Assembly (NCBI GenBank): GCA_029067205.1
Contig: JAIEEY010000079.1
Location: 1-64,000, forward strand
Direction: 5' to 3'
Source: Lachnospiraceae bacterium
GTDB taxonomy: Bacteria; Bacillota; Clostridia; Lachnospirales; Lachnospiraceae
DNA length: 64,000 bases
The notes beneath the pieces were generated by a model that searched no databases, was not told the DNA's origin, and was given only the letters and a program-made list of their open reading frames with translations. Below are positions 32,669 through 52,099 of the stretch, piece by piece (within the stretch, counting starts at the first letter, position 1; each line of letters begins with the position of its first letter). A program made the position numbers and the translations under genes.

Positions 32669-33790
32669 TTACCTCGTTTCCGCTGCAAGCCTCATCAACT
32701 GCTCTGCGATGCGGCGTGCTCCTTTTCCATCGATCAGTTCTCTTTCCTGACTGTGCAAAAGCTCCCTGTATGACTTGTCTCTGATACAGCGTTTCAATGT
32801 CTCTCTCACGTTGTCTGCTGCCACCTCAGGATTCTTGGCAAAGCAACCCGCATTGACGATATCCGTGAGTTTCTCCAGCGCCTCCGCTCCCTGCCGCTGA
32901 TTTTCGGCAAAATAGAACACAATCATCGGCACACCTAGGGAACTAACCTCATAAATCGTGCTCCCTGTCGCCGTGATGACCACATCACTTTCCAAAAGCA
33001 GACTGCGCATATCCTTTACATTTTCATGGATTGTTATTGTTACTCCGCGCATGCGGGACTGTTCTTTTTTACAGCCATGCCCTTCTTTAACTTCGTCGTG
33101 CTGGTATCTGCGCTTCAGCTCACCTGCAAAGCGGTTAAAAGGTCCACTGATCAAATGCAGGTGTATCCCCTGTTCTGCCAGTGTTCTATCACTGCTCAAA
33201 ACGTCTGCAAAAGCCCCCATTGCAAAATAGGGATCACTTCCGCCTGTTGTTACAATAACATTTGTTACTTTATCATTGACCACATATCCCGCTGGTTCCT
33301 GAAATGCCTTTCGAAGCGGCATATACTCTGCGCCTAACAATACTTCCTGGGGAAATCTGCCGTTTGCCCCACTTTCTGAGTCCTGTTCCTTATAACGTTT
33401 CTCCAAATCTGGCGCATAGATATTGTAATTGATCAGCAAATCAACGGGATACGCCTGCCCCATATCCTCAAAACATGCCACTTTCACAAGCTTCCGCAGC
33501 GCAAGATAATATTCACTGTCCGCCTGATAACTGTCCACAAGCAGCACATCCTGTTTTTGAAACAGCAAGTCCAACTGCCAAAGCTCACTCATCATATCCC
33601 TGTAATCTGTCCCCAGCACAATGACGCGAAACCCCCGCTCCTCAATCAGCGTCCGGCATCCCTCATCTGCTGTAATAAAAACAGGCGGATATACATGGTC
33701 GATATCCGCCGCCGCTTCCGCAACGGAGAGACAGCGCATCACATGCCCCATGCCAATCTCTGTATTGCCGTCTGCACGTATATATAACAT
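32669..33790 (-). CDS. pseG: PseG-like UDP-sugar hydrolase
   Basis: IRADGNTEIGMGHVMRCLSVAEA; NVIVTTGGSDPYFAMGAFADVL; VITATGSTIYEVSSLGVPMIVF. Confidence 0.9.
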   Translation of the reverse strand: MLYIRADGNTEIGMGHVMRCLSVAEAAADIDHVYPPVFITADEGCRTLIEERGFRVIVLGTDYRDMMSELWQLDLLFQKQDVLLVDSYQADSEYYLALRKLVKVACFEDMGQAYPVDLLINYNIYAPDLEKRYKEQDSESGANGRFPQEVLLGAEYMPLRKAFQEPAGYVVNDKVTNVIVTTGGSDPYFAMGAFADVLSSDRTLAEQGIHLHLISGPFNRFAGELKRRYQHDEVKEGHGCKKEQSRMRGVTITIHENVKDMRSLLLESDVVITATGSTIYEVSSLGVPMIVFYFAENQRQGAEALEKLTDIVNAGCFAKNPEVAADNVRETLKRCIRDKSYRELLHSQERELIDGKGARRIAEQLMRLAAETR

Positions 33791-33806: not shown

Positions 33807-34502
33807 CTAACTGTTCCTTATGGTTTTACGTATCAACATAAACGCTTCCGCCCGCTCCATGCCTGCTGCCATGCCGCGCGTTTTTGACAGCACATCCATC
33901 CCTGTCAGACTTCTCGGGTGCGGAAAGCTGCAAAGCTCTGACACATAACAGTTCATCGCCTGCTCCTTCTTGTCATAATAATCGGAGATATCCACAAATA
34001 CATTCGGACAAAAAGCAGACTGTGCACTGTAATCAAAATTCCACTCTGTGGAAGAAAGCGTCTCAAAAGCATAAATCTCCTCCACACTATAGTCACCGAT
34101 CGGTCTTGTCGCCGTGAGTACCGCACGCGCTGTATACTGGTGGTCTACATTCAGATCACCGCTGTAATGTGTATAGATAATCTGTGGCTGTAGTTCCTGT
34201 ATTTTCTGCTCCACTGCTTTTACAATGTCCAGCAGGTCCACATCATCAAAACGATTGTCTGGAAAATCCGCAAAAAATACGTTCTGGAATCCTACTGCCT
34301 TGGCACTCTCCAAAGTGTTTTGATGAAGTTCTTCCACAACCTCCCTGTCTGTATCCTCCCGATGGGTACCGCGCGAGGTCTGCCCCTCCCCCAAAATAAA
34401 GGCATAGACTACATCACCCTCCGCCACATGCCTTGCCACCGTTCCGCCGACTCCGAGAATCTCATCGTCTGGATGCGCCGCCACAACCAAAACTGTTTTC
34501 AT
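33807..34502 (-). CDS. PIG-L/LmbE-family deacetylase
   Basis: VVAAHPDDEILGVGGTVARHVAEGDVVYAFILGEG; YTHYSGDLNVDHQYTARAV. Confidence 0.92.
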   Translation of the reverse strand: MKTVLVVAAHPDDEILGVGGTVARHVAEGDVVYAFILGEGQTSRGTHREDTDREVVEELHQNTLESAKAVGFQNVFFADFPDNRFDDVDLLDIVKAVEQKIQELQPQIIYTHYSGDLNVDHQYTARAVLTATRPIGDYSVEEIYAFETLSSTEWNFDYSAQSAFCPNVFVDISDYYDKKEQAMNCYVSELCSFPHPRSLTGMDVLSKTRGMAAGMERAEAFMLIRKTIRNS

Positions 34503-34515
34503 CTTTTATCCTCCC

Positions 34516-34557
34516 TGCGTGCTCTGGCACGCATACCAATCAATCGTTTGAAAGTGA
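34516..34557. repeat. copy 2 of 42-bp interspersed hairpin repeat (tgcgtgctctggcacgcataccaatcaatcgtttgaaagtga)
   Basis: Near identical to 6466..6507; immediately upstream of RBS GGGAGG of the PIG-L gene. Confidence 0.85.
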
Positions 34558-34561
34558 ATAG

Positions 34562-35284
34562 CTATGATTCTGACTGATCTGACATATGCCGAAAAGTGAC
34601 CTTTGCCGAGAGTTCTTTTTCATTGTTTTCATTGATTAAAAAATCTGCCTGTTCCAGTTCCAATCGATAATCCCCAAACTCTATAAATGCCCTGGGATAA
34701 CCTTCCGCGTCCAGCATTCTGATATAATCATAGATTTGGTCTGTTTTCATATCAGACGTTATATTTCCATCTTCTGGTTTTCTGCGTTTAAACAACACTG
34801 GTTCCCCTTCCTGTGGAATGGGTGCTATTTTCTCACTACCCTCATCCAGAAACTGTGGAATCATTTCCCAAAAAATAATATCCGAACAACGCACAAAAAT
34901 CTCCTGTGCACTTCCTTCCAACGATAACGCATGCTTCATATATATTGGACCGCCATCGAGTTTCTCTGTCATTCTGATCGCAGATATCTTTGTCTCTTTA
35001 TGTCCGCGCACGATCAGATTCTGAAGCGGGCTTCCTCCCCTTCCATATGGCAGATCTGTCATATGAAACACCACACACTCCCAATCGTCCGTTATTTCTT
35101 TGGGCATAATATAGGACCAGTGTGGCAGGAAAATGTAATCAGGTCCAAAATCGCATATGTTCTTCAGCGTAAATTCTTCCTTGCTCGTATAAATTATAAT
35201 CTCATGTACGCCTTCATATTTCTTCTGCAGCTCTCTCGCCCGCTCAATATTCCATGATTTGATTGTCGCAATGATAATCTTCAT
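34562..35284 (-). CDS. formyltransferase-like protein (Fmt family)
   Basis: CVVFHMTDLPYGRGGSPLQNLIVRGHKETKISAIRMTEKLDGGPIYMK. Confidence 0.85.
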   Translation of the reverse strand: MKIIIATIKSWNIERARELQKKYEGVHEIIIYTSKEEFTLKNICDFGPDYIFLPHWSYIMPKEITDDWECVVFHMTDLPYGRGGSPLQNLIVRGHKETKISAIRMTEKLDGGPIYMKHALSLEGSAQEIFVRCSDIIFWEMIPQFLDEGSEKIAPIPQEGEPVLFKRRKPEDGNITSDMKTDQIYDYIRMLDAEGYPRAFIEFGDYRLELEQADFLINENNEKELSAKVTFRHMSDQSES

Positions 35285-35347: not shown

Positions 35348-35803
35348 TTACTCGATTTCTTTTTCATACTGTGCATAATCTGGCAACTCTTTTTTCAAAA
35401 AACCATTTTTCTCAAAAGCCCTGGCAGAAGCACGATTTTCATACTTTACCTGCCCAACTATCTTTGTGACATGCATGCTTTTCTCTGTGTTCAGCTGTGT
35501 CTGCATCATTTGAAGCATTTCGCTGCCATATCCTTTTCCGCGCTGGTCGCATACTATGCTATAATCAATAACTGCTTCACCACCTTGAACATTGAGCCGA
35601 ATCTGCCCGACTGGCTTCTCGCCCTCGCACAGAATATATAGATATACATCCGCATCCGCCATCACTTTTTCAAACCATTGCACATGATTGTCATAAGAAA
35701 TCTTTTCTGTGTGAAAGGCATTTGCCCTGACAGTATCGTCATTTGCCCATTCAAAAAGCAAATCCATATCATCATAATCCGCCTTCCTCAACCGCAGATT
35801 CAT
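35348..35803 (-). CDS. pseH: PseH-like GNAT acetyltransferase
   Basis: LRLRKADYDDMDLLFEWANDDTVRANAFHTEKISYDNHVQWFEKV; QRGKGYGSEML; in pse cluster. Confidence 0.85.
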   Translation of the reverse strand: MNLRLRKADYDDMDLLFEWANDDTVRANAFHTEKISYDNHVQWFEKVMADADVYLYILCEGEKPVGQIRLNVQGGEAVIDYSIVCDQRGKGYGSEMLQMMQTQLNTEKSMHVTKIVGQVKYENRASARAFEKNGFLKKELPDYAQYEKEIE

Positions 35804-36870
35804 GACTGATACTCCTCCATGCCATCAATATGCTCAAATGCCAGCGGCGTCCCACGCTTCAATTCGCGCTTTGCGGTTTTGCCGAGCACTTCCTTGTAGT
35901 ACTTCGGTTTCAAACCATATGCCGGACGGATACTTCTGATATTCTCTGGTGTAAACGCCTCGCCGGCAGCAATATCCTTCACGGCAAAGAGGGAGCGTCG
36001 AAAACAGGTATTGCTTTCTTCCTGTTCCGAAACACCATAATATACCTTTCCCATCGCTTTCTCCACCTCTCGCACCTGACAAACCATCTCGCGAAACTCC
36101 TCTGGTTCCATAGAAAAGCTCGAATCGGGATTTTTGATCGCACGGCTGATGCAGAAGTGCTTTTCAATGATATTGGCTCCCATTGCAACCGCAGTCGCGG
36201 CACTGAAATACCCCATCGAATGATCAGAAAGCCCTATCGGAATATTAAAGCGTGCCTTTAGATCCCGAATCGTACTGAGGTTCATCTCCTCACTTTTCGC
36301 CGGATAAGCGCTCGAGCACTTCATCAATGCCAGCTGCTTATTTCCAGTGCGGTAGATTGCCGCAACTGCCTCATTGATTTCCTCTAAGGTTCCCATCGCT
36401 GTTGACATGATGATCGGTTTCTTTTTTGAGGCAATGTATTCCAGCAGTGGAATGTCCACCAGTTCAAACGAAGCTATTTTGTAAAAGCCTACACCAAGAT
36501 TCTCCAGGAAATCGACCGAGGTATGGTCAAAAGGTGTTGACAGAAAGTCAATACCCACCTTTGCCGCCTCGTCGCGAAGCTGCTCCTGCCACTCCCATGG
36601 TGTATATGCTTTCTGGTACAGGGAATACAGGTTATCACCCTCCCATGTACCCTTTTCAATCTGAAAATACTCATTGCGGCAGTCAATTGTCATTGTATCC
36701 GGCGTGTAAGTCTGTATCTTAACACAGTCTGCCCCCGCCTCTTTTGCCACATGAATCAATTCCAGCGCACGCTCAATGCTCCCCGCATGATTGGCTGACA
36801 TCTCTGCTATGATATAAGCAGGATTGCCATCTCCCACTGTCCTGCCATTAATATTAAAAGTATCACTCAT
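35800..36870 (-). CDS. pseI: pseudaminic acid synthase
   Basis: PAYIIAEMSANHAGSIERALELIHVAKEAGADCVKIQTYTPDTMTI; FDHTSVDFLENL; C-terminal SAF region; start trimmed to MSDTFNI (ORF track 36948). Confidence 0.94.
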   Translation of the reverse strand: MSDTFNINGRTVGDGNPAYIIAEMSANHAGSIERALELIHVAKEAGADCVKIQTYTPDTMTIDCRNEYFQIEKGTWEGDNLYSLYQKAYTPWEWQEQLRDEAAKVGIDFLSTPFDHTSVDFLENLGVGFYKIASFELVDIPLLEYIASKKKPIIMSTAMGTLEEINEAVAAIYRTGNKQLALMKCSSAYPAKSEEMNLSTIRDLKARFNIPIGLSDHSMGYFSAATAVAMGANIIEKHFCISRAIKNPDSSFSMEPEEFREMVCQVREVEKAMGKVYYGVSEQEESNTCFRRSLFAVKDIAAGEAFTPENIRSIRPAYGLKPKYYKEVLGKTAKRELKRGTPLAFEHIDGMEEYQS

Positions 36871-36881
36871 CTTTCCCTCTC

Positions 36882-37610
36882 CTATTGATTTCCATTCTGC
36901 AGATTTGTGCCCATCATAAGCTGGTACTTCATCTCTGCGATCTCCCAATCTTCTGGTGTATCAATATCCTGCACATATTTTTCGTCCTGTATAAATGGGA
37001 CTGCATTCTCCATCCAGATCGCCTTCTGCCGTCGAAAACTCTCCACATTCAGACAGTAAAACTGTCCACAATCGTGATAGAGAGGTTCCAAATCCTGTGA
37101 GCGCTTTGCCATATTTTCCGGCCACATTGGCGAGAGTCTACCATCATGGACCACAACACCTCTCTGTGGCGGGAAAGAAAATCTTACCACTGGTATCACA
37201 CAATCCGCCCGCCCCTGAGACAGGGGCATTTCCTGCTCTAATAGCATCATGGCTGTCCTGATGGTGTCTGCCGTCACAAACGGCGCTGTGGGATAGATAC
37301 AGCATACCGTATGAAAATTTTTTCCAATCTGCTCATAAGCTTCAATAACCTCTGCAATTACATCCGCTGTCGTGGCAAAATCATTGGACGTCTTATCGCT
37401 TCTGAAAAAAGGAACCTTCGCCCCTGCCCTTTCTGCCGCCTGCGCGATCTCCTCGTCATCTGTCGACACCATAACCTCATCAAACAGATCCGCCCGCAGT
37501 GCTGCCTCAATACTGTACTCAATAATTGGTCTTCCCAGAAATGGCTTGATGTTCTTGCGCGGTATGCGTTTGCTGCCTCCCCTCGCCGTTATGATCGCTG
37601 CACTTTTCAT
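36882..37610 (-). CDS. pseF: CMP-pseudaminic acid cytidylyltransferase
   Basis: AIITARGGSKRIPRKNIKPFLGRPIIEYSIEAAL; VSTDDEEIAQ. Confidence 0.93.
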   Translation of the reverse strand: MKSAAIITARGGSKRIPRKNIKPFLGRPIIEYSIEAALRADLFDEVMVSTDDEEIAQAAERAGAKVPFFRSDKTSNDFATTADVIAEVIEAYEQIGKNFHTVCCIYPTAPFVTADTIRTAMMLLEQEMPLSQGRADCVIPVVRFSFPPQRGVVVHDGRLSPMWPENMAKRSQDLEPLYHDCGQFYCLNVESFRRQKAIWMENAVPFIQDEKYVQDIDTPEDWEIAEMKYQLMMGTNLQNGNQ

Positions 37611-37727: not shown

Positions 37728-38921
37728 TTACTTTTTGTAATAGTCCACAATCTTCCTGACCGCCATGATCACATCATCGACATCGGGGTCCGTCAGGGAA
37801 TAATAAATCGGCAGACTCATCATCTCCTCATATAGCTTCTCCGCATTAGGACAGAGCCCTTTTTTGTATCCAAGTTTCTCGTAATATGGGTGCCAGTACA
37901 CCGGGATATAGTGTACATTACAGCAGATATTCTCTGCCGCCATCGCGTCAAAAAAGCCCTTGCGGTCGATTGTCAACATCTCTGGTCTGAGCCGCAGTAT
38001 GTAGAGATGTCTCGTCGTATCGGACTCTGGTATCTCCTGCTGTACAAAGAGCTGTGGAATCTGCAAAAACGCCTCATTATAGCGTTCCACGATCTCCCTG
38101 CGTCTTTCTGCAAACTGTGAGAGCTTGTCAATCTGACTTAAGATCAGCGCACACTGAATATCTGTAATTCTGTAATTATATCCTAGGTCAATCTGTTCAT
38201 GATACCATGAACCATGACTCTCATTCACATAAAAAGTCTCATCTTTCGTAATTCCATGGGAACGGTACAGCAGGAGTTTTTCGTATAAATCCTCGCGGTT
38301 TGTGAGCACCGCGCCTCCCTCCCCGCCTGTCACCGTCTTGACAGGGTGAAAACTAAACGTTGTGATATCTGCGATACTTCCAACCGGCTTTCCCTTGTAT
38401 TTTGTACCAATAGAATGCGCCCCATCCTCTATCAATACAATGCCTTTCGTGTGGCATATCTCAAGCAGCTCATCCAGCGGCGCGGCTTGTCCTGTAAAAT
38501 CCACTGCCACTACTGCCTTGGTGTGATCTGTGATCTTCTCCTGCACACTCGCCGGATCAATATTGTAAGTATTCGGATTAATATCTGCAAAAACTGGTCT
38601 TCCACCACAGTAAAGTGCACAGTTTGCAGATGCAGCAAATGTAATTGGTGTTGTGATCAGCTCATCCCCGGATCCTACACCTGCCGCCATCGCCGCGATG
38701 TGAAGCGCCGCAGTGCCATTGCTGACAGCAACTGCATACTTTGCCCCCGTGAGAGCACAGAGCTTTTTTTCAAGCTCCACAACTTTTGGACCACATGTGA
38801 GGTAATCGCTGGTGAGCACTTCCTCCACAGCCTTCGCGTCCGCCTGATCAACAAACTGATGTCCATAATAAAGTTTTGTGTTCCTGACCGGAGAACCTCC
38901 GGCAATCGCTGGTTTTACCAT
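37728..38921 (-). CDS. pseC: UDP-4-keto-6-deoxy-HexNAc aminotransferase
   Basis: YYGHQFVDQADAKAVEEVLTSDYLTCGPKVVELE; EDGAHSIGTKYKGKPVGSIADITTFSFHPVKTVTGGEGG. Confidence 0.95.
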   Translation of the reverse strand: MVKPAIAGGSPVRNTKLYYGHQFVDQADAKAVEEVLTSDYLTCGPKVVELEKKLCALTGAKYAVAVSNGTAALHIAAMAAGVGSGDELITTPITFAASANCALYCGGRPVFADINPNTYNIDPASVQEKITDHTKAVVAVDFTGQAAPLDELLEICHTKGIVLIEDGAHSIGTKYKGKPVGSIADITTFSFHPVKTVTGGEGGAVLTNREDLYEKLLLYRSHGITKDETFYVNESHGSWYHEQIDLGYNYRITDIQCALILSQIDKLSQFAERRREIVERYNEAFLQIPQLFVQQEIPESDTTRHLYILRLRPEMLTIDRKGFFDAMAAENICCNVHYIPVYWHPYYEKLGYKKGLCPNAEKLYEEMMSLPIYYSLTDPDVDDVIMAVRKIVDYYKK

Positions 38922-38930
38922 AAAAACCCC

Positions 38931-39926
38931 CTACTCGTGCAAATCTGTCTTCAAGAGCTCCCGAATCTGTTCTACAGACAGCCACTCCGTATTGTTTCCC
39001 GACGAATAATAGAAGCCCTCTTCCACCTTCCTGCCACTTGGATTCGGACGTTTTGACTCCTGCCAGAACATCTGCGGATAGATGATAAAATTCTTTTCAT
39101 ACTCATACGTCGTCATAGAATCTTCCGCTGTGATCATCACCTCATGAAGCTTCTCACCTGGACGGATACCAACTTCCACCGTCTTCATCCCTGGTGCCAT
39201 CGCCTCCGCAAGATCCGTGATCTTAAACGAAGGAATCCTGCTGATAAAAGTCTCACCGCCTTTCGCCTCCTCGAGTGCCTTGATCACAAGCTCAACCCCC
39301 TGTGTCAGGCTGATCCAGAAGCGCGTCATGCGATAATCCGTAATTGGAAGCTCACTTGCGCCCTCGTCAATCAGCTTTTGAAAAAGCGGAATGATCGATC
39401 CCCTGCTTCCCGCTACATTTCCATATCGCACGATAGAGAAATTCAAGTCTTTCATGCCGCAGTATGCGTTGGCAGCAATAAATAACTTATCTGACACCAA
39501 TTTCGTACCACCATATAAATTCACCGGATTGACTGCCTTGTCTGTAGATAAAGCTACAACCTTTTTAATACCTGTATTTAACGCTGCATCAATGACATTC
39601 TGCGCACCATTGACATTCGTCTTGATCGCCTCGTTCGGATTGTACTCACACGCAGGCACCTGTTTTAACGCCGCCGCATGAATCACATAATCAACGCCCT
39701 CAAACGCACGTTTCATGCGCTCATAATCACGCACATCGCCGATAAAAAAGCGAAGCTTTTCTTTGTACTGTGCAAAATCGTTCGCCATCACCCACTGTTT
39801 ATACTCATCCCTTGAATAAATAATAATCTTTTTGGGGTTGTAATGTGTCAGTACATATTCGGTAAAGCACCTTCCAAAAGAGCCTGTACCGCCTGTGATT
39901 AGTATCGTTTTATCATCTAATATCAT
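38931..39926 (-). CDS. pseB: UDP-GlcNAc 4,6-dehydratase (inverting)
   Basis: ILITGGTGSFGRCFTEYVL; IIIYSRDEYKQWVMA; AAALKQVPACEYNPNEAIKTNVNGAQNVI. Confidence 0.96.
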   Translation of the reverse strand: MILDDKTILITGGTGSFGRCFTEYVLTHYNPKKIIIYSRDEYKQWVMANDFAQYKEKLRFFIGDVRDYERMKRAFEGVDYVIHAAALKQVPACEYNPNEAIKTNVNGAQNVIDAALNTGIKKVVALSTDKAVNPVNLYGGTKLVSDKLFIAANAYCGMKDLNFSIVRYGNVAGSRGSIIPLFQKLIDEGASELPITDYRMTRFWISLTQGVELVIKALEEAKGGETFISRIPSFKITDLAEAMAPGMKTVEVGIRPGEKLHEVMITAEDSMTTYEYEKNFIIYPQMFWQESKRPNPSGRKVEEGFYYSSGNNTEWLSVEQIRELLKTDLHE

Positions 39927-42946: not shown

Positions 42947-43987
42947 TTATGCCCCGCTTTTTCCAGTACTATGGCGTATTTTATTGCGGTAAAAATAAAG
43001 CAGCTGAAAATAAAGCTTGAATTTAAGGGGGGACTGCATGTGCATCGCTGCAAGCTTCTTCTGTTCCTCGTCAAATGTATTCTGGTAATAAATATTATCC
43101 TGAAAATCCGGGAACTCCTGTTTCATTCCATCCGCAATCTCTTTGAGGAACTTTAATCTGGTTTTCCTCACTCCAAGCATATAAGTAAAAAGTGTATTCA
43201 TATAATATATTTTTGAAAAAGCGAACTCAAACTCCTGCCTGTAAGGCTTGTAAATACCGTATCTGCGCGCCTCCTCGATCAGGCGCTTTCCCATTGCAAG
43301 TCTCGCCTCACATTTCTCCACACTGATTTCATGTACTGTGGAAGTCCCATGCTGATAATAATAGTAAAGAGGCTCATCCACTTTCTCGAAGTGCGTAAAG
43401 TGCAGCATCCAGATCGGTGAAGCACAATTATCCTCATAAAAAGACCTCTCCGGAAACCTCAGACCATACGCATCGATCACAGCTTTCAGATATACCTTGA
43501 TCACCATGCTTCCCGGATTCATGACAAGCTTTTTATAACGCTCGTGGTCAAGCACTCCGGTCTGGTCCGTCGTATTGTTGGGCATCAGCTTACCGATATT
43601 CATCGTATGCGTATCAACCATACAGTAATCGCATCCGACAACATCCGCGCCCGTTTTCTCCGCTTTTTTTATCAGCTTTTCATACATGTCAGGTGCAACC
43701 CAATCATCGGAATCGACAAAACCAATCCATCTGCCGCGCGCGATGTCAAGCCCCTTATTGCGCGCGCCGCCCTGCTTGACATTCTCATAGGACTGTACCG
43801 CCTTAAATTTCCATGGATACTTGGACTCATATTCTTTGAGAATCATAAGCGATTCGTCCGTCGAGGCATCGTCTACTGCTATGATCTCATAGTCCGCAAT
43901 CGTCTGATTGATCAGCGAGTCCAGGCAAAATCTGAGCTTATTGTCCGCCGCCATATTGTAAACAGGTACTATTATACTTAGCCTCAT
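42947..43987 (-). CDS. glycosyltransferase family 2
   Basis: LSIIVPVYNMAADNKLRFCLDSLINQTIADYEIIAVDDASTD; GRWIGFVDSDDWV. Confidence 0.93.
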   Translation of the reverse strand: MRLSIIVPVYNMAADNKLRFCLDSLINQTIADYEIIAVDDASTDESLMILKEYESKYPWKFKAVQSYENVKQGGARNKGLDIARGRWIGFVDSDDWVAPDMYEKLIKKAEKTGADVVGCDYCMVDTHTMNIGKLMPNNTTDQTGVLDHERYKKLVMNPGSMVIKVYLKAVIDAYGLRFPERSFYEDNCASPIWMLHFTHFEKVDEPLYYYYQHGTSTVHEISVEKCEARLAMGKRLIEEARRYGIYKPYRQEFEFAFSKIYYMNTLFTYMLGVRKTRLKFLKEIADGMKQEFPDFQDNIYYQNTFDEEQKKLAAMHMQSPLKFKLYFQLLYFYRNKIRHSTGKSGA

Positions 43988-44255: not shown

Positions 44256-45995
44256 CTAGCGCTCTCTTACAATACCGCCGTCCTCCACTCTAAATACCAT
44301 ATCACATTTCTCAATTGTCTGTAACCTGTGCGCAATGATAACAAGTGTTTTTTTACCATGCAACCGGTTGATGGACTCCATGATCGCCGCCTCCGTGTCA
44401 TTGTCCAGCGCCGAGGTCGCCTCATCCAGAATCATCACCTCTGGGTCATTGTAAAGTGCCCTCGCAATACCAATTCTCTGACGCTGCCCGCCTGAAAGCC
44501 TGATTCCACGCTCACCAATACCAGTATTCACACCCTCTGGCAGCGTCTTTACAAATTCGTCAAGCTGTGCTTCCTTCAAAGCATACCAAAGCTTTTCATC
44601 ATCAATCTCCTCCTCCGGGACACCAAAGGCAACATTTTTCCTGATATCCGCATCCAGCAAAAAGATCATCTGCGGTATGTAGCCCACATTGGCAAGCCAC
44701 TCCCTGTAATGATCCTGTATATTCACATCATCTGCAAGCACACTGCCGCCCTGCAGCTTTAAGAGCCCTAACAAAATGTCAATAATTGTCGTCTTTCCGG
44801 CGCCGCTCGTCCCCACGATACCGATTGATCTGCCAATTGGAAAAGAAACCGTCGCATGGTCAAAGATCAGCTTGTCCGAATTGGGATAGTGGTACGTAAT
44901 ATCGAACAGTTTTACCTCCCTCGTGACAGGCAGCTTTTCTTTCGCGACAACCGCATAGGAAATGTCTGTGTGTGCCTCGTCCGTCTCCTCGACAAGATTA
45001 TCGCTCACATTAAAGAAAAACGGTTCATTAAATGCCATGCTTGTCATCTGGTTATTAATACGGCTCGCTGCGGGCAAAAGCCTCATCGCCGCAATACCAA
45101 ACGCTGCAAATAAGGAAACCATACCCGATACATCTGTTCCTATCACGATCAGCGCCATAATATAGCCCAGCAGCCCTGCCATACAAACAGTCTCAATTAA
45201 AAGTTTCGGGGTGTTATTAAACAGGCTGAACCGCTCCATTGCCTTCACATAACCTTCTCCGACCTTGCAGTACTCGCCTATAAAATACTGCTCGCGCCCT
45301 GCGACCTTAATTTCCTTGATACCCTGTACAGTCTGTGAAATCCACGCAAACATGGACGCGCCATAGTCTTGATTTTCTTTGCCCGTGCGGTTCATGATCG
45401 GCTTGATGATATTCTTGATGACAACAAGTGTTACTACCAAAAGCACTGCAATCACCACTGTCATGACTGGATCTTTTACAGCAAGCGCCACAACCAGGAA
45501 TACAGCGACAATCACCTCCGATGCGATCTGCAGTACAGACATGATCAACGCGTACATATTGCTGACATCTGCAGTAATACTCCTCTGTATCACAGATGTT
45601 TCTGCATCAAGATAATACTCATATTCGCGCCTGACAAAATTTTTCATCAGGCTTGATGCCGTCTTGAACTGGTTGCTGTACACAAACCGATACAGATTCC
45701 TCTGCAAAAAAAACTGGAACACATTTTTTGCGATATATAATACAATCAAAAACAGAATCGCAAGAACGGAAAACTGTACTGTATTCCGCAAGTGAAGGAT
45801 ATCACATATCACCTGATAATTTTCGCCCTGCTCCAGAGCAACCGGATCCAGAATCAGCTGTACCACATACATTACCATCATCACGGCTCCAGTTTCCAGT
45901 CCCGCCGATATAATCATCATCACAAACAGTCTCGCCATGGCACCTTTTTGTTTTTTATCCATCAAGATATTTATCTTTTTTAATATTTTAAGCAA
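44256..45995 (-). CDS. ABC transporter, fused TMD-NBD exporter (PglK/MsbA-like; possible lipid-linked glycan flippase)
   Basis: VGTSGAGKTTIIDILLGLL; GERGIRLSGGQRQRIGIARALYNDPEVMILDEATSALD. Confidence 0.92.
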   Translation of the reverse strand: MLKILKKINILMDKKQKGAMARLFVMMIISAGLETGAVMMVMYVVQLILDPVALEQGENYQVICDILHLRNTVQFSVLAILFLIVLYIAKNVFQFFLQRNLYRFVYSNQFKTASSLMKNFVRREYEYYLDAETSVIQRSITADVSNMYALIMSVLQIASEVIVAVFLVVALAVKDPVMTVVIAVLLVVTLVVIKNIIKPIMNRTGKENQDYGASMFAWISQTVQGIKEIKVAGREQYFIGEYCKVGEGYVKAMERFSLFNNTPKLLIETVCMAGLLGYIMALIVIGTDVSGMVSLFAAFGIAAMRLLPAASRINNQMTSMAFNEPFFFNVSDNLVEETDEAHTDISYAVVAKEKLPVTREVKLFDITYHYPNSDKLIFDHATVSFPIGRSIGIVGTSGAGKTTIIDILLGLLKLQGGSVLADDVNIQDHYREWLANVGYIPQMIFLLDADIRKNVAFGVPEEEIDDEKLWYALKEAQLDEFVKTLPEGVNTGIGERGIRLSGGQRQRIGIARALYNDPEVMILDEATSALDNDTEAAIMESINRLHGKKTLVIIAHRLQTIEKCDMVFRVEDGGIVRER

Positions 45996-46204: not shown

Positions 46205-47764
46205 ATGGCTAGATGCTTGAATACGAAATCTGCATACAAGGATTTCCACATGTTGGTCCATGACCGTAACTTTGTCGACAAGTCCGGCATTATTGAATCC
46301 ATCAGCGCCCGAATCAACACCAAGAACCGATATGTCTGCATCACAAAACCCCGCCGCTTTGGGAAGACATCTGTGCTCAACATGCTCGGCGCCTATTATT
46401 GCAAGGCATACGATTCCAGCGCATTGTTTGATGACTTAAAAATCAGCAAAACCAAGACCTACACGACACATCTGAACAAGTACAATGTCATCAATCTGTG
46501 TATGAACAACCTTTCGGATCAAGGAAATACTTATGATGATTATATCAATCTCACCAAGAATGCCATCAGGCGCGATCTTATAAAGAGTTATCCTGAGCTG
46601 AAAGATGATGAATTTGACAGTATTTCCGAGATGCTGGCTGCCACCGATGACGAATTTATCTTTATCATCGATGAATGGGACTATATTTTCAGCCATGAGC
46701 TTTATCAGGAACATTATGGTGATTTTCTGGAGTTTTTGCGAAATCTGTTAAAAGACAAGTCGTATGTGGCTCTGGCATACATGACAGGAGTACTGCCGAT
46801 CAAAAAATACAGCACTGGTTCTGCGCTGAATATGTTCAAGGAATATACCATGCTCAAGGATCCATTTTTTGATGAATATTTTGGTTTTACCGAAGAGGAA
46901 GTTGAAATGTTATGCCAAAGGCAGACGGCACTGACAATAGATGAAATTCGTGACTGGTACAACGGATATCGGACCAGAAATGCTGCACACTTATACAATC
47001 CACGATCTGTAGTATGCGCCTTAGAAGATTCTGTATGTCAGAGCTACTGGACGAGAACAGGCAAAATGGACGAAGTTCTATTTTTCCTGAAATACAATAT
47101 TGGAGAGGTACGTGATGATGTCGTAAAAATGGTCAATGATACACCTGTCATGATCAGTATCGCCGAGGAATATTCTGCTGGTCAGGAAACCATCAGCAAT
47201 AGAGAAGAGATTTATTCTGCCATGGTCATCTACGGTCTGTTATCGTACCATGAAGGAACTATAAAAATTCCGAATAAAGAGCTTATGCTGGAATTTCAAA
47301 AAGCTTTAAAAGACGACGATTTCGGCTATGTGGCAGAACTTGTACGCAATTCGGACGAAATACTGGGCGCCACTTGGGCTAAGAGGGGAGATGTCGTGGC
47401 ATCCTATCTTCACAACATCCACAACAGCGAGCTTCCCATATTGAAATACAACGATGAAAACAGCCTCTCATGCGTCGTAACACTCGCATATCTCTCTGCA
47501 AGAAATAAATACAGAATTGAGAGAGAAGAAAAAAGCGGAAAAGGCTTTGTCGACTTCATCTTTTATCCCCGGCAGAAAGGCCTGCCTGGTATTATTCTTG
47601 AATTAAAAGCGGACAAATCGCCCCAAGACGCGATCGCCCAGATCAAGCAGAAAGAATATAGTGAAAAGTTAAAAAGAGAAAATATTGACAACATACTTGC
47701 AATCGGGCTAAACTATGACACTCACAAAAAAGAACACCAATGCGTGATCGAGGAACTTTCCTGA
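46205..47764 (+). CDS. AAA-ATPase-like / PD-(D/E)XK nuclease-superfamily protein (PF09820/PF08011-like)
   Basis: YVCITKPRRFGKTSVLNMLGAYY Walker A; FIFIIDEWDYIF Walker B; C-terminal GFVDFIFYPRQKGLPGIILELKADKSPQDAIAQIKQKEY PD-(D/E)XK-like motif. Confidence 0.85.
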   Translation: MARCLNTKSAYKDFHMLVHDRNFVDKSGIIESISARINTKNRYVCITKPRRFGKTSVLNMLGAYYCKAYDSSALFDDLKISKTKTYTTHLNKYNVINLCMNNLSDQGNTYDDYINLTKNAIRRDLIKSYPELKDDEFDSISEMLAATDDEFIFIIDEWDYIFSHELYQEHYGDFLEFLRNLLKDKSYVALAYMTGVLPIKKYSTGSALNMFKEYTMLKDPFFDEYFGFTEEEVEMLCQRQTALTIDEIRDWYNGYRTRNAAHLYNPRSVVCALEDSVCQSYWTRTGKMDEVLFFLKYNIGEVRDDVVKMVNDTPVMISIAEEYSAGQETISNREEIYSAMVIYGLLSYHEGTIKIPNKELMLEFQKALKDDDFGYVAELVRNSDEILGATWAKRGDVVASYLHNIHNSELPILKYNDENSLSCVVTLAYLSARNKYRIEREEKSGKGFVDFIFYPRQKGLPGIILELKADKSPQDAIAQIKQKEYSEKLKRENIDNILAIGLNYDTHKKEHQCVIEELS

Positions 47765-47803: not shown

Positions 47804-48937
47804 CTATTTGTCTGCGAGCGCAAGCCCTGCCTTTTTATTATAAGCGTGCTTTTCCGGATCCTCATAAGCATCCCAGAAGGACGCACCAAGATTTAATTTT
47901 TCATCCACAAAATCCATATTATTCATAGCCGTTGTTACGATCGAAACAGCCTTCCTGATATGAAGCCCCTCAAAGAAATTGAGAACCTCCACTGGAAACC
48001 GCCCGCGGAGCACCACCGCATCGGGACATAGCTCCCCATAATCTATCATATCCCGTGGGTGCGGTTTTATCAAGACGCGATAACCCGCACAGTATTTCTC
48101 AATCACATCGAGGCAGACTTGTTTCCTCGCCTCCACATCAACCGGGTGCGGTTCTGTCAAAAAGCACGCAAACTCCTCTCCTTCATATGACGGCTCTAAC
48201 TGCCTGATCAATTCGTCCGCATCTTCGATAAATGCCTGTATCATCAACTTTTTCTGTTCTGAAGTCAGCTCCCTCTCCAGCGGTTTTCTCGGCTCTTCGA
48301 CAAAGCGCGGACAGTCTGTCGGCACCACACTCCTGTCGTTGATCTCCATATCGATGCAGTACTTTCCCCAACCGTTCATGATAAAGATCAGATTATGGCG
48401 TGAAAACCACGTCTTTAGCTTAAAATGTCCATGGTTTGCGACATAAGCGTCATCGAGATTTTTGAGACAGTCAAGCCCGTCCTCCACCGCATGATAATAA
48501 AGGTGCTTATAATTCAGATAATAACCAATTGGGTCACTGTCACAGAACACATAGATATCCTCATACACAGCAAAATCAATCACTTTCATGTACGGAATCT
48601 CACACTTTGCAAGCTTTTTTGTGAAAATCATGCGGTTTACCATATGTTTTAAAATATTACTATAATTTTTCCTGTACTTTGCAAGCTCTGGAAAAAAATC
48701 CTCACGCTTCTCATCCAGCGTAATCACCTCATGAAAAATCCCTATCCTTGTGAGCCTGTCCCCCAGATTTTCAAAGTTCGTGGAAATGGAACTCAGCGCG
48801 ATGTCCGCTTTCTTATAGTCACTTGCAGGGGTATTCCTCGCAAGTTTCATTTCTTTTAAGATTGCTACATATACATGATAAAACGTGTGGCAGACATATA
48901 TTCTGCTCTTTGTCTTTTTTTTCTTCATTTCCTTCAC
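47804..48937 (-). CDS. GT52/bacterial sialyltransferase-like glycosyltransferase (candidate CMP-nonulosonate transferase)
   Basis: YVCHTFYHVYVAIL N-terminus; YYHAVEDGLDCL (D/E-D/E-G motif) and VLIKPHPRDMIDY (HP motif). Confidence 0.65.
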   Translation of the reverse strand: MKEMKKKKTKSRIYVCHTFYHVYVAILKEMKLARNTPASDYKKADIALSSISTNFENLGDRLTRIGIFHEVITLDEKREDFFPELAKYRKNYSNILKHMVNRMIFTKKLAKCEIPYMKVIDFAVYEDIYVFCDSDPIGYYLNYKHLYYHAVEDGLDCLKNLDDAYVANHGHFKLKTWFSRHNLIFIMNGWGKYCIDMEINDRSVVPTDCPRFVEEPRKPLERELTSEQKKLMIQAFIEDADELIRQLEPSYEGEEFACFLTEPHPVDVEARKQVCLDVIEKYCAGYRVLIKPHPRDMIDYGELCPDAVVLRGRFPVEVLNFFEGLHIRKAVSIVTTAMNNMDFVDEKLNLGASFWDAYEDPEKHAYNKKAGLALADK

Positions 48938-49034: not shown

Positions 49035-49063
49035 TTGCGTTTATGCGCTGATTGCCCTATAAT
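49035..49063 (+). promoter_or_regulatory. putative promoter of orphan 161-aa gene
   Basis: TTGCGT - 17 bp - TATAAT on plus strand. Confidence 0.65.
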
Positions 49064-49120
49064 AAATACCGTACTGTTGAAACATTATTTTATTTTTTTA
49101 TTTCATATGGAGGAAACACT

Positions 49121-49606
49121 ATGAAATACCCTGAAATTGATGAGTCAAAACTACCGGAAGTCATGGAAATCATTGACGCTGCCGCAAGCCTTATGGAGGA
49201 AAAGGATTGTGATCAGGACGCCGCGGCAAAGAAAGAACTTGATGCACTCCAAAAACGGCTGCGCGAGATTACCGGAAAGAAAAACCTCCTCATCACGGAG
49301 TACAACGCATACTGGTCCTATACCAGCTTAGAGACTGTTGCGCGCAATGCTATGCATCTGCCTCCCCAAAAGAGCGGCATGACAGACGAACAACTCACCG
49401 AACTGATCCGGAGAATCAGCGAACTGGATTTCGATGTCCCCAAAAACGCCCTGGAGGCTACAAACGATTATTTTCTGCAGGTACTGGAAGTTGAAACCGG
49501 ACTGGACGATGTTTCCGATTACATATACTGGCCTGACCAGATTGGTCTTGACCTGCACGCCAGTCTCAACGAAATCACTGCTAAAATTCTCGCTGACAGA
49601 AAATAG
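49121..49606 (+). CDS. hypothetical acidic protein (161 aa)
   Basis: Start at ATG after TGGAGGAAACACT (ORF track start 49052 not supported by an RBS); own promoter and terminator. Confidence 0.75.
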   Translation: MKYPEIDESKLPEVMEIIDAAASLMEEKDCDQDAAAKKELDALQKRLREITGKKNLLITEYNAYWSYTSLETVARNAMHLPPQKSGMTDEQLTELIRRISELDFDVPKNALEATNDYFLQVLEVETGLDDVSDYIYWPDQIGLDLHASLNEITAKILADRK

Positions 49607-49630
49607 ACGGGGTTCTTTCCCGTCTATTTT
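49600..49630. terminator. bidirectional intrinsic terminator
   Basis: aaaatagacggg-gttcttt-cccgtctatttt: 12-bp perfect stem between convergent genes, flanked by A/T tracts on both sides. Confidence 0.85.
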
Positions 49631-50820
49631 GCATTTCTGGTATACGCATACCCCTTCCGCGGTGCAATCAGCGGTGCAGGGCTCAGCGGTCCTTCCTTTT
49701 CTGGCTCCACTTTTCCGTTTAACAATCCCTCGCAGAAACGATAAAGCCTGTCCGCCGCTGTCTTGGGATTCCATTCGCCTACCATCGTCTGATAGGCTTT
49801 CGTACCAAGTTTCTTTCGCAATGCCTCGTCCCTGCACAGGCTCAGAACCTGCTCCCGAAACTCTTTATAATGTTCATTCTTGTATACCAGCCCGTTCTGC
49901 CCGTGTCTGATCAGGAACGGAACTGCACCGATCCCGCTTCCTGCCACAACTGCACACGCACTGTTCATGGACTCGTTCAAGACCGCCCCCCAGCCCTCCA
50001 GATGATTGCTGGTAAACAGGAAAACGTCAGACTCCTCCATAAATCTGCGCACATTCTGCGGCGGCTGGAACCCATGAAATGTGACTCTCTGTTCCAGATG
50101 CCAGATTTTCACCTGCATCTTCAGCTGTTCCTCCAGCTCCCCGCCGCCTACCATGTTCAGATGAAAGGATATCTGTTGTTGTTCGAGATATTTTGCAGCT
50201 TTGATGGCATACTCCGGATGTTTTAATTTCAGAAAACGCCCTGCCCACAAAATCTTGGTTTCAGACTTTCCATCCTGGTCAAAATGGAGTTTCCGGAAAA
50301 ACAGATTATCAAGATTATAGGTATTCACCTTGGGAAAATATCCCCACATATATTTTTTGTCAGGATATGCGTGCACAATGTTAAAGTCAGACGCCACATA
50401 CGCGCCATGGCACAACAGATATACTGGTGCATCCGCATACTGCGTGTGGTCTTCATACTTTTTCTTTCTGCCGCGCGGAGAAATTGATTTCCACTGCCCC
50501 TCCCGGTAAAGACGCTCACTGGCTCGGATCACGATCTTTCCCGCTCTCAGCCTCGGCTTGATATAGCTCTCGTCCTCAACCCCTCCAAACACAACAATAT
50601 CACTGTCCAAAATCAGCCTTGCACACCGCTCTTCCTCCTCATAGTAAAGCTTTAAGTAGGGAATCGACGAAACCTCACTCCCCCACCCCATCTTAACCCT
50701 GTCTTCCTCCATTCTGGAAGTCTGTATAAATGCAAAGTCCCTGCCGAGTTTTCGATACAGTTCATTGGACATCGGTATCTGATGATGATTGATGTAATTA
50801 GATACAATGGTTAATTTCAT
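49624..50820 (-). CDS. glycosyltransferase family 4
   Basis: MKLTIVSNYINHHQIPMSNELY; FTSNHLEGWGAVLNESMNSACAVVAGSGIGAVPFLI; start trimmed to 50820. Confidence 0.88.
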   Translation of the reverse strand: MKLTIVSNYINHHQIPMSNELYRKLGRDFAFIQTSRMEEDRVKMGWGSEVSSIPYLKLYYEEEERCARLILDSDIVVFGGVEDESYIKPRLRAGKIVIRASERLYREGQWKSISPRGRKKKYEDHTQYADAPVYLLCHGAYVASDFNIVHAYPDKKYMWGYFPKVNTYNLDNLFFRKLHFDQDGKSETKILWAGRFLKLKHPEYAIKAAKYLEQQQISFHLNMVGGGELEEQLKMQVKIWHLEQRVTFHGFQPPQNVRRFMEESDVFLFTSNHLEGWGAVLNESMNSACAVVAGSGIGAVPFLIRHGQNGLVYKNEHYKEFREQVLSLCRDEALRKKLGTKAYQTMVGEWNPKTAADRLYRFCEGLLNGKVEPEKEGPLSPAPLIAPRKGYAYTRNAK

Positions 50821-52099
50821 GATAAATATCCAAAAGCCTCCTATAATTTGTCTCCGGATCATGCGTTCTAAGTGCGTGCGCCCTCGCGTTGGATGACAGT
50901 GACAGCGCAAGCTTGTCATCCTCAAAGATACGCAGGATAGAATCTTTCAGTCGTTTTGGCTTATCCTTCGGATACAGGAATCCATCTTTTCCATCGTTGA
51001 CCAGATTGTGCACACCGCCCACATTGGCTGCAACCACCGGAACACCCAGAAGCATCGCCTCACCGACAGAATTGGGCGAGTTTTCGATTGCAGAAGGGCA
51101 TAAAAATACATGGGATTTTAAAAATCGTGCACACATCTTGTCCGCCTGCAGCTTTCCTACAAACTTGACATGATCCTGCATCCTGCTTTTCTTGATCTGG
51201 TTCAACAAAAACTTTCCATATCCCGACAGCTTGATTTTATCCTTGATGCTGTCATTTGCCGTGATGACATCTCCCGCCACATAGACCACTGTCTCCTCAA
51301 ACTCCTCCACAAGCTCAGGGAGAATATCAATGACATAGTGTAACCCCTTGATCGGATAATTTCCCTGACTTAAGAAAAGGGAATACCGCTCAATCTGGTC
51401 AATCTTCCATTCACCATCATAGAAATCCGTCCGCAGTGTCTCATTCATAAAATGATATTTCGCATCTGGCGCAAACATCTTTGTCATTTCCCTGTCAAAA
51501 TCTGTCCTCCCGGTGACATGACCGGCCATCGAGAGCGCCTCTTTCTCATATGTACCGCGCTTCACGAACTTCGCCTGCTGGTCAAATAATCCGTCCTTTT
51601 TCAAAATATCACGAAATGTCTTTTTCTTCTGCACAGAATAGGGCAGATCTGCCATGTACACCTCTGCGATAGCGGTGCACAACCCCTGTATTCCGATCAA
51701 AGTCCGCGCAGGACGATGGAATGCCTTCACACAGGCAAGCGTATGTGGATATTCTGTGCCAAAAATGTGAATAATATCCGGTCCAAAATCCCTGATCACC
51801 GCGCCAAGGCTCTCCTCCATACCGGCATCATAATGCTCCGGATGAACCGTGTCCTCCCGAAAGATGTAGTAGTCGATTCCCTGCGCCTTATCTTTTACAA
51901 ACAGCGCAGTATCACCCTTTACAAACGCACGGCTCTCTGATTCCGGAAAGCAGATCGCGAGTGTTATGTCATTTCTTTCCTGATTTGCCATCAGCTTGCT
52001 GGCAAGTCCGGAAAGCCACCCCTCCTTGATGATGATCTTCTGCCCCAGACTCTTTGCAATAAACGGGAGCATGATATTACACAACCACAAAACCCTCAT
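50798..52099 (-). CDS. glycosyltransferase family 4
   Basis: CPSAIENSPNSVGEAMLLGVPVVAANVGGVHNLV; start MRVLWLCNIMLP with GGAGG RBS. Confidence 0.88.
   Translation of the reverse strand: MRVLWLCNIMLPFIAKSLGQKIIIKEGWLSGLASKLMANQERNDITLAICFPESESRAFVKGDTALFVKDKAQGIDYYIFREDTVHPEHYDAGMEESLGAVIRDFGPDIIHIFGTEYPHTLACVKAFHRPARTLIGIQGLCTAIAEVYMADLPYSVQKKKTFRDILKKDGLFDQQAKFVKRGTYEKEALSMAGHVTGRTDFDREMTKMFAPDAKYHFMNETLRTDFYDGEWKIDQIERYSLFLSQGNYPIKGLHYVIDILPELVEEFEETVVYVAGDVITANDSIKDKIKLSGYGKFLLNQIKKSRMQDHVKFVGKLQADKMCARFLKSHVFLCPSAIENSPNSVGEAMLLGVPVVAANVGGVHNLVNDGKDGFLYPKDKPKRLKDSILRIFEDDKLALSLSSNARAHALRTHDPETNYRRLLDIYHEINHCI

Follow-up and report, generated by a model that had tools for sequence, protein, structure and literature searches.

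Pseudaminyltransferases and related enzymes

Pseudaminic acid (Pse) is a bacterial cousin of sialic acid, and few pseudaminyltransferases have been assigned so far. The Pse5Ac7Ac transferase KpsS1 of A. baumannii is described as a retaining enzyme that defines family GT118 (Walklett 2024, as cited in PMC12887879), and Maf proteins are flagellin pseudaminyltransferases (PMC13317340). In T. forsythia, Pse and Leg transferases have been implicated by knockouts, among them a DXD-containing enzyme for Pse (PMC6388019). Members of family GT52 (PF07922) include LOS alpha-2,3-sialyltransferases, among them NST of N. meningitidis (PDB 2yk4, 2yk6, 2yk7) and WbwA of E. coli O104. In the literature searched, in which subscription papers were thinly covered, no report of a GT52 pseudaminyltransferase was found.

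Two short motifs, D/E-D/E-G and (K/R)xHP, are known from bacterial sialyltransferase families. The latter is reported to occur in Kdo transferases of the retaining type as well (PMC12887879), and its role has been discussed (PMC12887879, PMC5517516, PMC2169525). The motif residues are E153/H278 in NmB-polyST (PMC2169525) and E153/H291 in the GT38 enzyme MhPST, where E153 is the base, H291 the acid, E323 the ribose ligand and S339 the phosphate ligand (PMC5517516). The counterparts in PmST1 are D141, H311, E338 and S355/S356 (PMC4202792).

A GT52 gene within a Pse cluster

The window, i.e., the 64,000-nucleotide stretch of Lachnospiraceae DNA analysed here, contains an ORF at 47804-48937 that a sequence-only reading had proposed to encode a pseudaminyltransferase. 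Those coordinates are exact; the ORF reads along the minus strand, begins with GTG and encodes 377 amino acids alignable end to end with relatives, and it looks intact. Its match to PF07922, at 42.6 bits (cut-off 26.1, E 5.8e-11), makes the protein a true member of GT52. The GT38 polysialyltransferase profile PF07388 reached 21.4 bits, below its cut-off of 23.3. No NCBIfam model matched the protein, PF01973 (Maf) was not among its Pfam matches, and none of the Pfam capsule-synthesis families was listed for it at E 0.1. A Maf assignment was rejected, as PF01973 was absent from the protein and, by family searches, no Maf gene was found in the window's genome. A GT118 assignment was also rejected, since the defining domain is absent from the Pfam matches.

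The same cluster carries, all on the minus strand, PseB (UDP-GlcNAc 4,6-dehydratase, inverting; 38931-39926; TIGR03589, 533 vs 408 bits), the aminotransferase PseC (37728-38921; TIGR03588, 454.7 vs 423.5 bits), the CMP-Pse synthetase PseF (36882-37610; TIGR03584, 283.7 vs 205.7 bits), and the Pse synthase PseI (35800-36948; TIGR03586, 473.3 vs 340.25 bits, with the NeuB model below cut-off), each above its equivalog cut-off. The remaining steps have candidates below cut-off: a PseG-like UDP-sugar hydrolase (32669-33790, minus; TIGR03590, 139.7 vs 153.55 bits) falls just short, and both PseH-like GNATs in the window score below theirs, including the weak match at 35348-35803 (minus; TIGR03585, 54.6 vs 93.1 bits). 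By these profile matches, CMP-Pse is predicted to be available in the cell. Within the Pse run, PIG-L deacetylase and formyltransferase-like genes (33807-35284, minus) are also found, and the sugar made by the cluster may be an N-formyl or otherwise re-acylated (N-acyl) Pse variant.

In addition, the cluster encodes an initiating phosphotransferase, Wzz-like and Wzy-like proteins (our own labels, as NCBIfam gave no match for either), and several GT2 and GT4 enzymes, families known for nucleoside-diphosphate donors. These include GT4a (49624-50925, minus; PF00534), a probable acceptor-making partner, and GT2a (42947-43987, minus; PF00535), which by synteny often travels with Pse genes. A PglK/MsbA-like ABC transporter (44256-45995, minus) is probably a lipid-linked glycan flippase, its best NCBIfam match being PglK at 333.7 bits, below the 1000-bit cut-off. 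This PglK-like gene sits in a Wzy-type cluster, and among the ORFs inspected none stood out as a Wzx flippase. Two genes on the opposite strand interrupt the run: an AAA-ATPase_like/PDDEXK_9 gene (46205-47764, plus) between the GT52 and ABC genes, which is absent from this junction in most relatives, and a small gene (49052-49606, plus) between GT4a and GT52, which only loci L002 and L033 share. GT4a and GT52 are adjacent or fused in relatives, whereas in the window they are separated by this small gene.

Co-occurrence with PseF and the choice of donor

Across 397 Lachnospiraceae genomes, GT52 was found in 49 and PseF above cut-off in 75, with 38 carrying both (odds ratio 29, Fisher p = 1.8e-22), a p-value that overstates the case because related genomes are not independent samples. 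Of the 11 GT52 genomes without a full PseF, seven carry distant GT52-like proteins only and another is a MAG that is 67% complete; in the other three PseF is partial, in two cases because a contig ends there. Among the 42 genomes with core-clade GT52, 38 have a full PseF, three a partial one, and a single incomplete MAG accounts for the last. In the window's genus, GT52 occurs in 36/38 genomes and PseF in 38/38, the two genomes lacking GT52 being 85% and 76% complete. The stronger donor argument is provided by genomes with a sole synthetase: in ten of the 42, PseF is the only PF02348 match, and nine of these, the window's genome included, are at least 90% complete. Half of the ten also have a single NeuB-family gene. 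Together with the gene context, these distributions support CMP-Pse as the predicted donor, in line with the sequence-only reading. Yet co-occurrence is also compatible with a different acceptor or an indirect role, and the genomes are related and the 120 loci compared below were drawn from two overlapping collections, so the counts are not independent.

The most serious alternative, though an improbable one, is a sialyl- or legionaminyltransferase using CMP-Neu5Ac or CMP-Leg. It draws on the characterised GT52 enzymes, which use CMP-Neu5Ac, on the acceptance of CMP-Leg5Ac7Ac by the N. meningitidis enzyme in vitro (PMC6388019), and on the window's own assembly. Here, contig C29 carries NeuC- and NeuB-like genes with a thiamine-pyrophosphate-type enzyme at the contig edge (L084:1082-5096), near CDP-sugar-like genes, and the organism may have a second nonulosonate pathway; the assembly is a MAG with 8.7% estimated contamination, and both points also weigh against the CMP-Pse reading. 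For the window, the earlier claim that no CMP-sugar other than CMP-Pse is synthesised is borne out, and family searches of the whole assembly found one CTP_transf_3 gene, which is PseF, but the claim is qualified genome-wide by the NeuB/NeuC-like pair on C29. Against CMP-Neu5Ac or CMP-Leg stand the family searches of this genome, which found no second CTP_transf_3 gene, the nine near-complete core-clade genomes in which PseF is the sole synthetase found, and the core-clade loci, which have no adjoining NeuA/NeuB cluster. The one Neu-type association found involves a distant member from a Lachnospiraceae genome: at L172:9416-15191 a polyST/GT52-like protein has NeuB-, NeuC- and NeuA-like genes as neighbours, a candidate Neu5Ac- or Leg-type locus.

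Other distant members keep different company. Three distant GT52/polyST-like proteins adjoin KdsB-like cytidylyltransferases (L166:4517-7853, L171:9337-12817, L170:9310-13484). Next in line in L166 and L171 is an HMGL-like (PF00682) enzyme, possibly a sign that an uncommon keto acid sugar is activated with CMP there. Another such protein lies beside a divergent CTP_transf_3 (L143), and a 644-aa protein at L126:8481-10415 is a fusion of a GT2 domain with a distant GT52 domain. The partner synthetase thus differs between clades, with the core clade going with PseF. In a quick tree, the core clade was split from the distant members with an SH-aLRT of 100, yet the distant branches are very long, making the placement of the most distant rows unreliable; L171 was placed within the core, but solely on a long branch.

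Fold and conserved residues

Searches of PDB sequences with the single protein and with a 38-sequence profile gave no matches, and relatedness to solved sialyltransferases is therefore visible by fold only. An AlphaFold2 model built from the 38-sequence alignment (mean pLDDT 90.1, pTM 0.89) is predicted to adopt a GT-B sialyltransferase fold, as anticipated by the sequence-only reading, which a different fold would have refuted: the top Foldseek matches in the PDB were 5wcn (GT38 polysialyltransferase, E 1.6e-8), 2zwi (GT80) and 2yk6 (GT52 NST, E 2e-7). However, TM-scores were moderate (0.36-0.53) and rmsd high, possibly from a different domain opening, and UDP-GlcNAc 2-epimerases, plant UGTs and other GT-B enzymes also match at lower rank. 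A viral fold search returned generic glycosyltransferases only.

Both motifs named in the sequence-only reading are present, as E152-D153-G154 (48476-48484, minus) and KPHPRD at residues 291-296 (48050-48067, minus), D153 and H293 being spaced by 140 residues. Bare motifs were rejected as sufficient evidence after shuffling, as composition-preserving shuffles contained [DE][DE]G in 29%, HP in 44% and both in 13% of cases. The ordered pair [DE][DE]G...[KR]xHP with a spacing of 100-180 residues, by contrast, is remarkable, being present in only 0.3% of shuffles. It is conservation in relatives, assessed in 120 core-clade and nine distant sequences (129 in all), that raises the motif pair above chance. 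In the core clade, D153, G154, K291, H293, P294, R295 and E317 are identical in 120/120 sequences, and E152 and T335 each vary once (119/120). The distant members also keep K291, H293, P294 and E317, so that K, H and P are found in 129/129. A second HP (residues 264-265, EPHP) is seen in close relatives only and is distinct from the conserved motif. By equivalence to E153 of MhPST (PMC5517516), D153 is proposed as the catalytic base, and H293 as the acid or CMP phosphate ligand. E317 and T335 (47933-47989, minus) are proposed as ribose and phosphate ligands, respectively; they are matched by order and spacing to E323/S339 of MhPST and E338/S355 of PmST1, from which we infer equivalence.

These residues also bear on whether the GT52-fold enzyme might use a non-CMP donor such as UDP-Glc. 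CAZy lists alpha-glucosyltransferase activity in GT52 too, and GT-B UDP-sugar enzymes appear in the Foldseek list, but the invariance of D/E-D/E-G and (K/R)xHP, motifs tied to CMP-ulosonate use, and the link between GT52 presence and PseF leave such a donor very little likelihood. Equally slight is the prospect of a polymerase building an oligo- or poly-Pse chain in the manner of GT38 polysialyltransferases. The best structural match and the weak PF07388 hit would fit it, but that hit is below cut-off, the GT4 fusions described below suggest a single added residue, and a cluster with Wzy-like and Wzz-like proteins, an initiating phosphotransferase and several other glycosyltransferases would be expected to make a mixed repeat unit.

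Gene order, fusions and proposed function

The genome scan for GT52 relatives gave 79 loci, almost all in Lachnospiraceae, and among 391 genomes sampled across the class GT52 was confined to this family. The gene order GT4b-GT4a-GT52-ABC-GT2a-...-PseB-C-F-I is preserved among close relatives (73-97% identity), and a second group (about 44-50% identity), which includes Eisenbergiella, retains GT52-ABC with PseF and PseI nearby. Cultured relatives with the locus include Lachnospiraceae bacterium A4 and COE1 (L013, L016). The ABC gene lies within the flanks in 94/120 relatives, with a median gap to GT52 of 55 bp. In L030, L031 and L132, GT4a and GT52 form one continuous reading frame of 770-803 aa, with each part near full length, which suggests consecutive reactions. 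Ten neighbours were scored in a sample of relatives: the seven of NeuB type all passed the PseI cut-off and stayed below that for NeuB, and the three cytidylyltransferases all passed the PseF cut-off. Of the 83 core loci flanked by 7.5 kb or more on either side, 23 have neither PseF nor PseI in those flanks, a point against the CMP-Pse reading, although nearly all sampled core-clade genomes carry PseF at another site. That another glycosyltransferase of the cluster, e.g., GT2a, transfers Pse and GT52 adds something else is the least probable alternative. In its favour, GT2a is syntenic with Pse genes in many loci and a DXD-containing enzyme is implicated in T. forsythia; against it, GT2 and GT4 are known for nucleoside-diphosphate donors, and of the proteins identified here GT52 alone combines the CMP-ulosonate motifs and the fold.

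The likely function of the gene is therefore that of an inverting, CMP-Pse-dependent GT52 enzyme that adds Pse to a Wzy-type repeat unit, probably after a GT4 enzyme. The acceptor for Pse, or for the derivative made by the cluster, would be a sugar in the lipid-linked repeat unit of a surface polysaccharide, with CMP-Pse as the donor of this GT-B enzyme. Deprotonation of the acceptor hydroxyl would fall to D153, and binding of CMP and stabilisation of the departing phosphate to K291, H293, E317 and T335, roles that imply an inverting, SN2-like transfer. If CMP-Pse has the alpha configuration, which PMC12887879 implies, beta-linked Pse would result. GT4a probably adds the acceptor sugar directly before GT52 caps it with Pse, and the PglK-like ABC protein probably flips the finished unit for Wzy polymerisation; this order of steps is suggested by the fusions and the short median gap to the ABC gene.

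It could be speculated further, and on balance we lean towards this view, that the Lachnospiraceae-wide GT52 clade forms a pseudaminyltransferase subfamily of its own, dedicated and inverting, set apart from both the retaining GT118 and Maf, which places beta-Pse into a surface polysaccharide conserved across the genus, in tandem or sometimes fusion with GT4 and with PglK-like flipping. Such an enzyme would attach Pse to a cell-surface sugar chain, and the clade could flag surface polysaccharides that contain Pse in a bacterial family dominant in the gut. Its many apparently CMP-Pse-only genomes would offer ready test enzymes and possible tools for Pse-glycan synthesis. In addition, as distant GT52-like proteins lie beside Neu- or Kdo-type genes, donor specificity is open to study within one fold.

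Comparison with known systems

Like NST and WbwA, the protein scores above the GT52 profile cut-off, has a modelled GT-B fold and carries the D/E-D/E-G and HP motifs. However, it is encoded in a polysaccharide locus of a Gram-positive Lachnospiraceae that specifies synthesis of CMP-Pse instead of CMP-Neu5Ac, and identity over the structural alignments is 12-14%. The GT38 enzyme MhPST (5wcn) is the best structural match and has the same base-acid motif spacing, but PF07388 stays below cut-off and no sign of homopolymer synthesis was found. With KpsS1 the protein shares the predicted donor and a capsule setting, yet KpsS1 is a retaining KpsC/WbbB homologue, whereas here the match is to GT52 and inversion is predicted. 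Maf/PseE proteins have the same predicted donor but act on flagellin Ser/Thr, and no PF01973 gene was found in this genome. Going by their description, the GtfS-type enzymes of T. forsythia are likewise implicated in NulO transfer and share the D/E-D/E-G and HP motifs, but they are described as having a DXD motif. Within a family so far known for ordinary sialic acid, the gene very probably encodes an enzyme for Pse, and it belongs to a GT52 clade with predicted CMP-Pse specificity.
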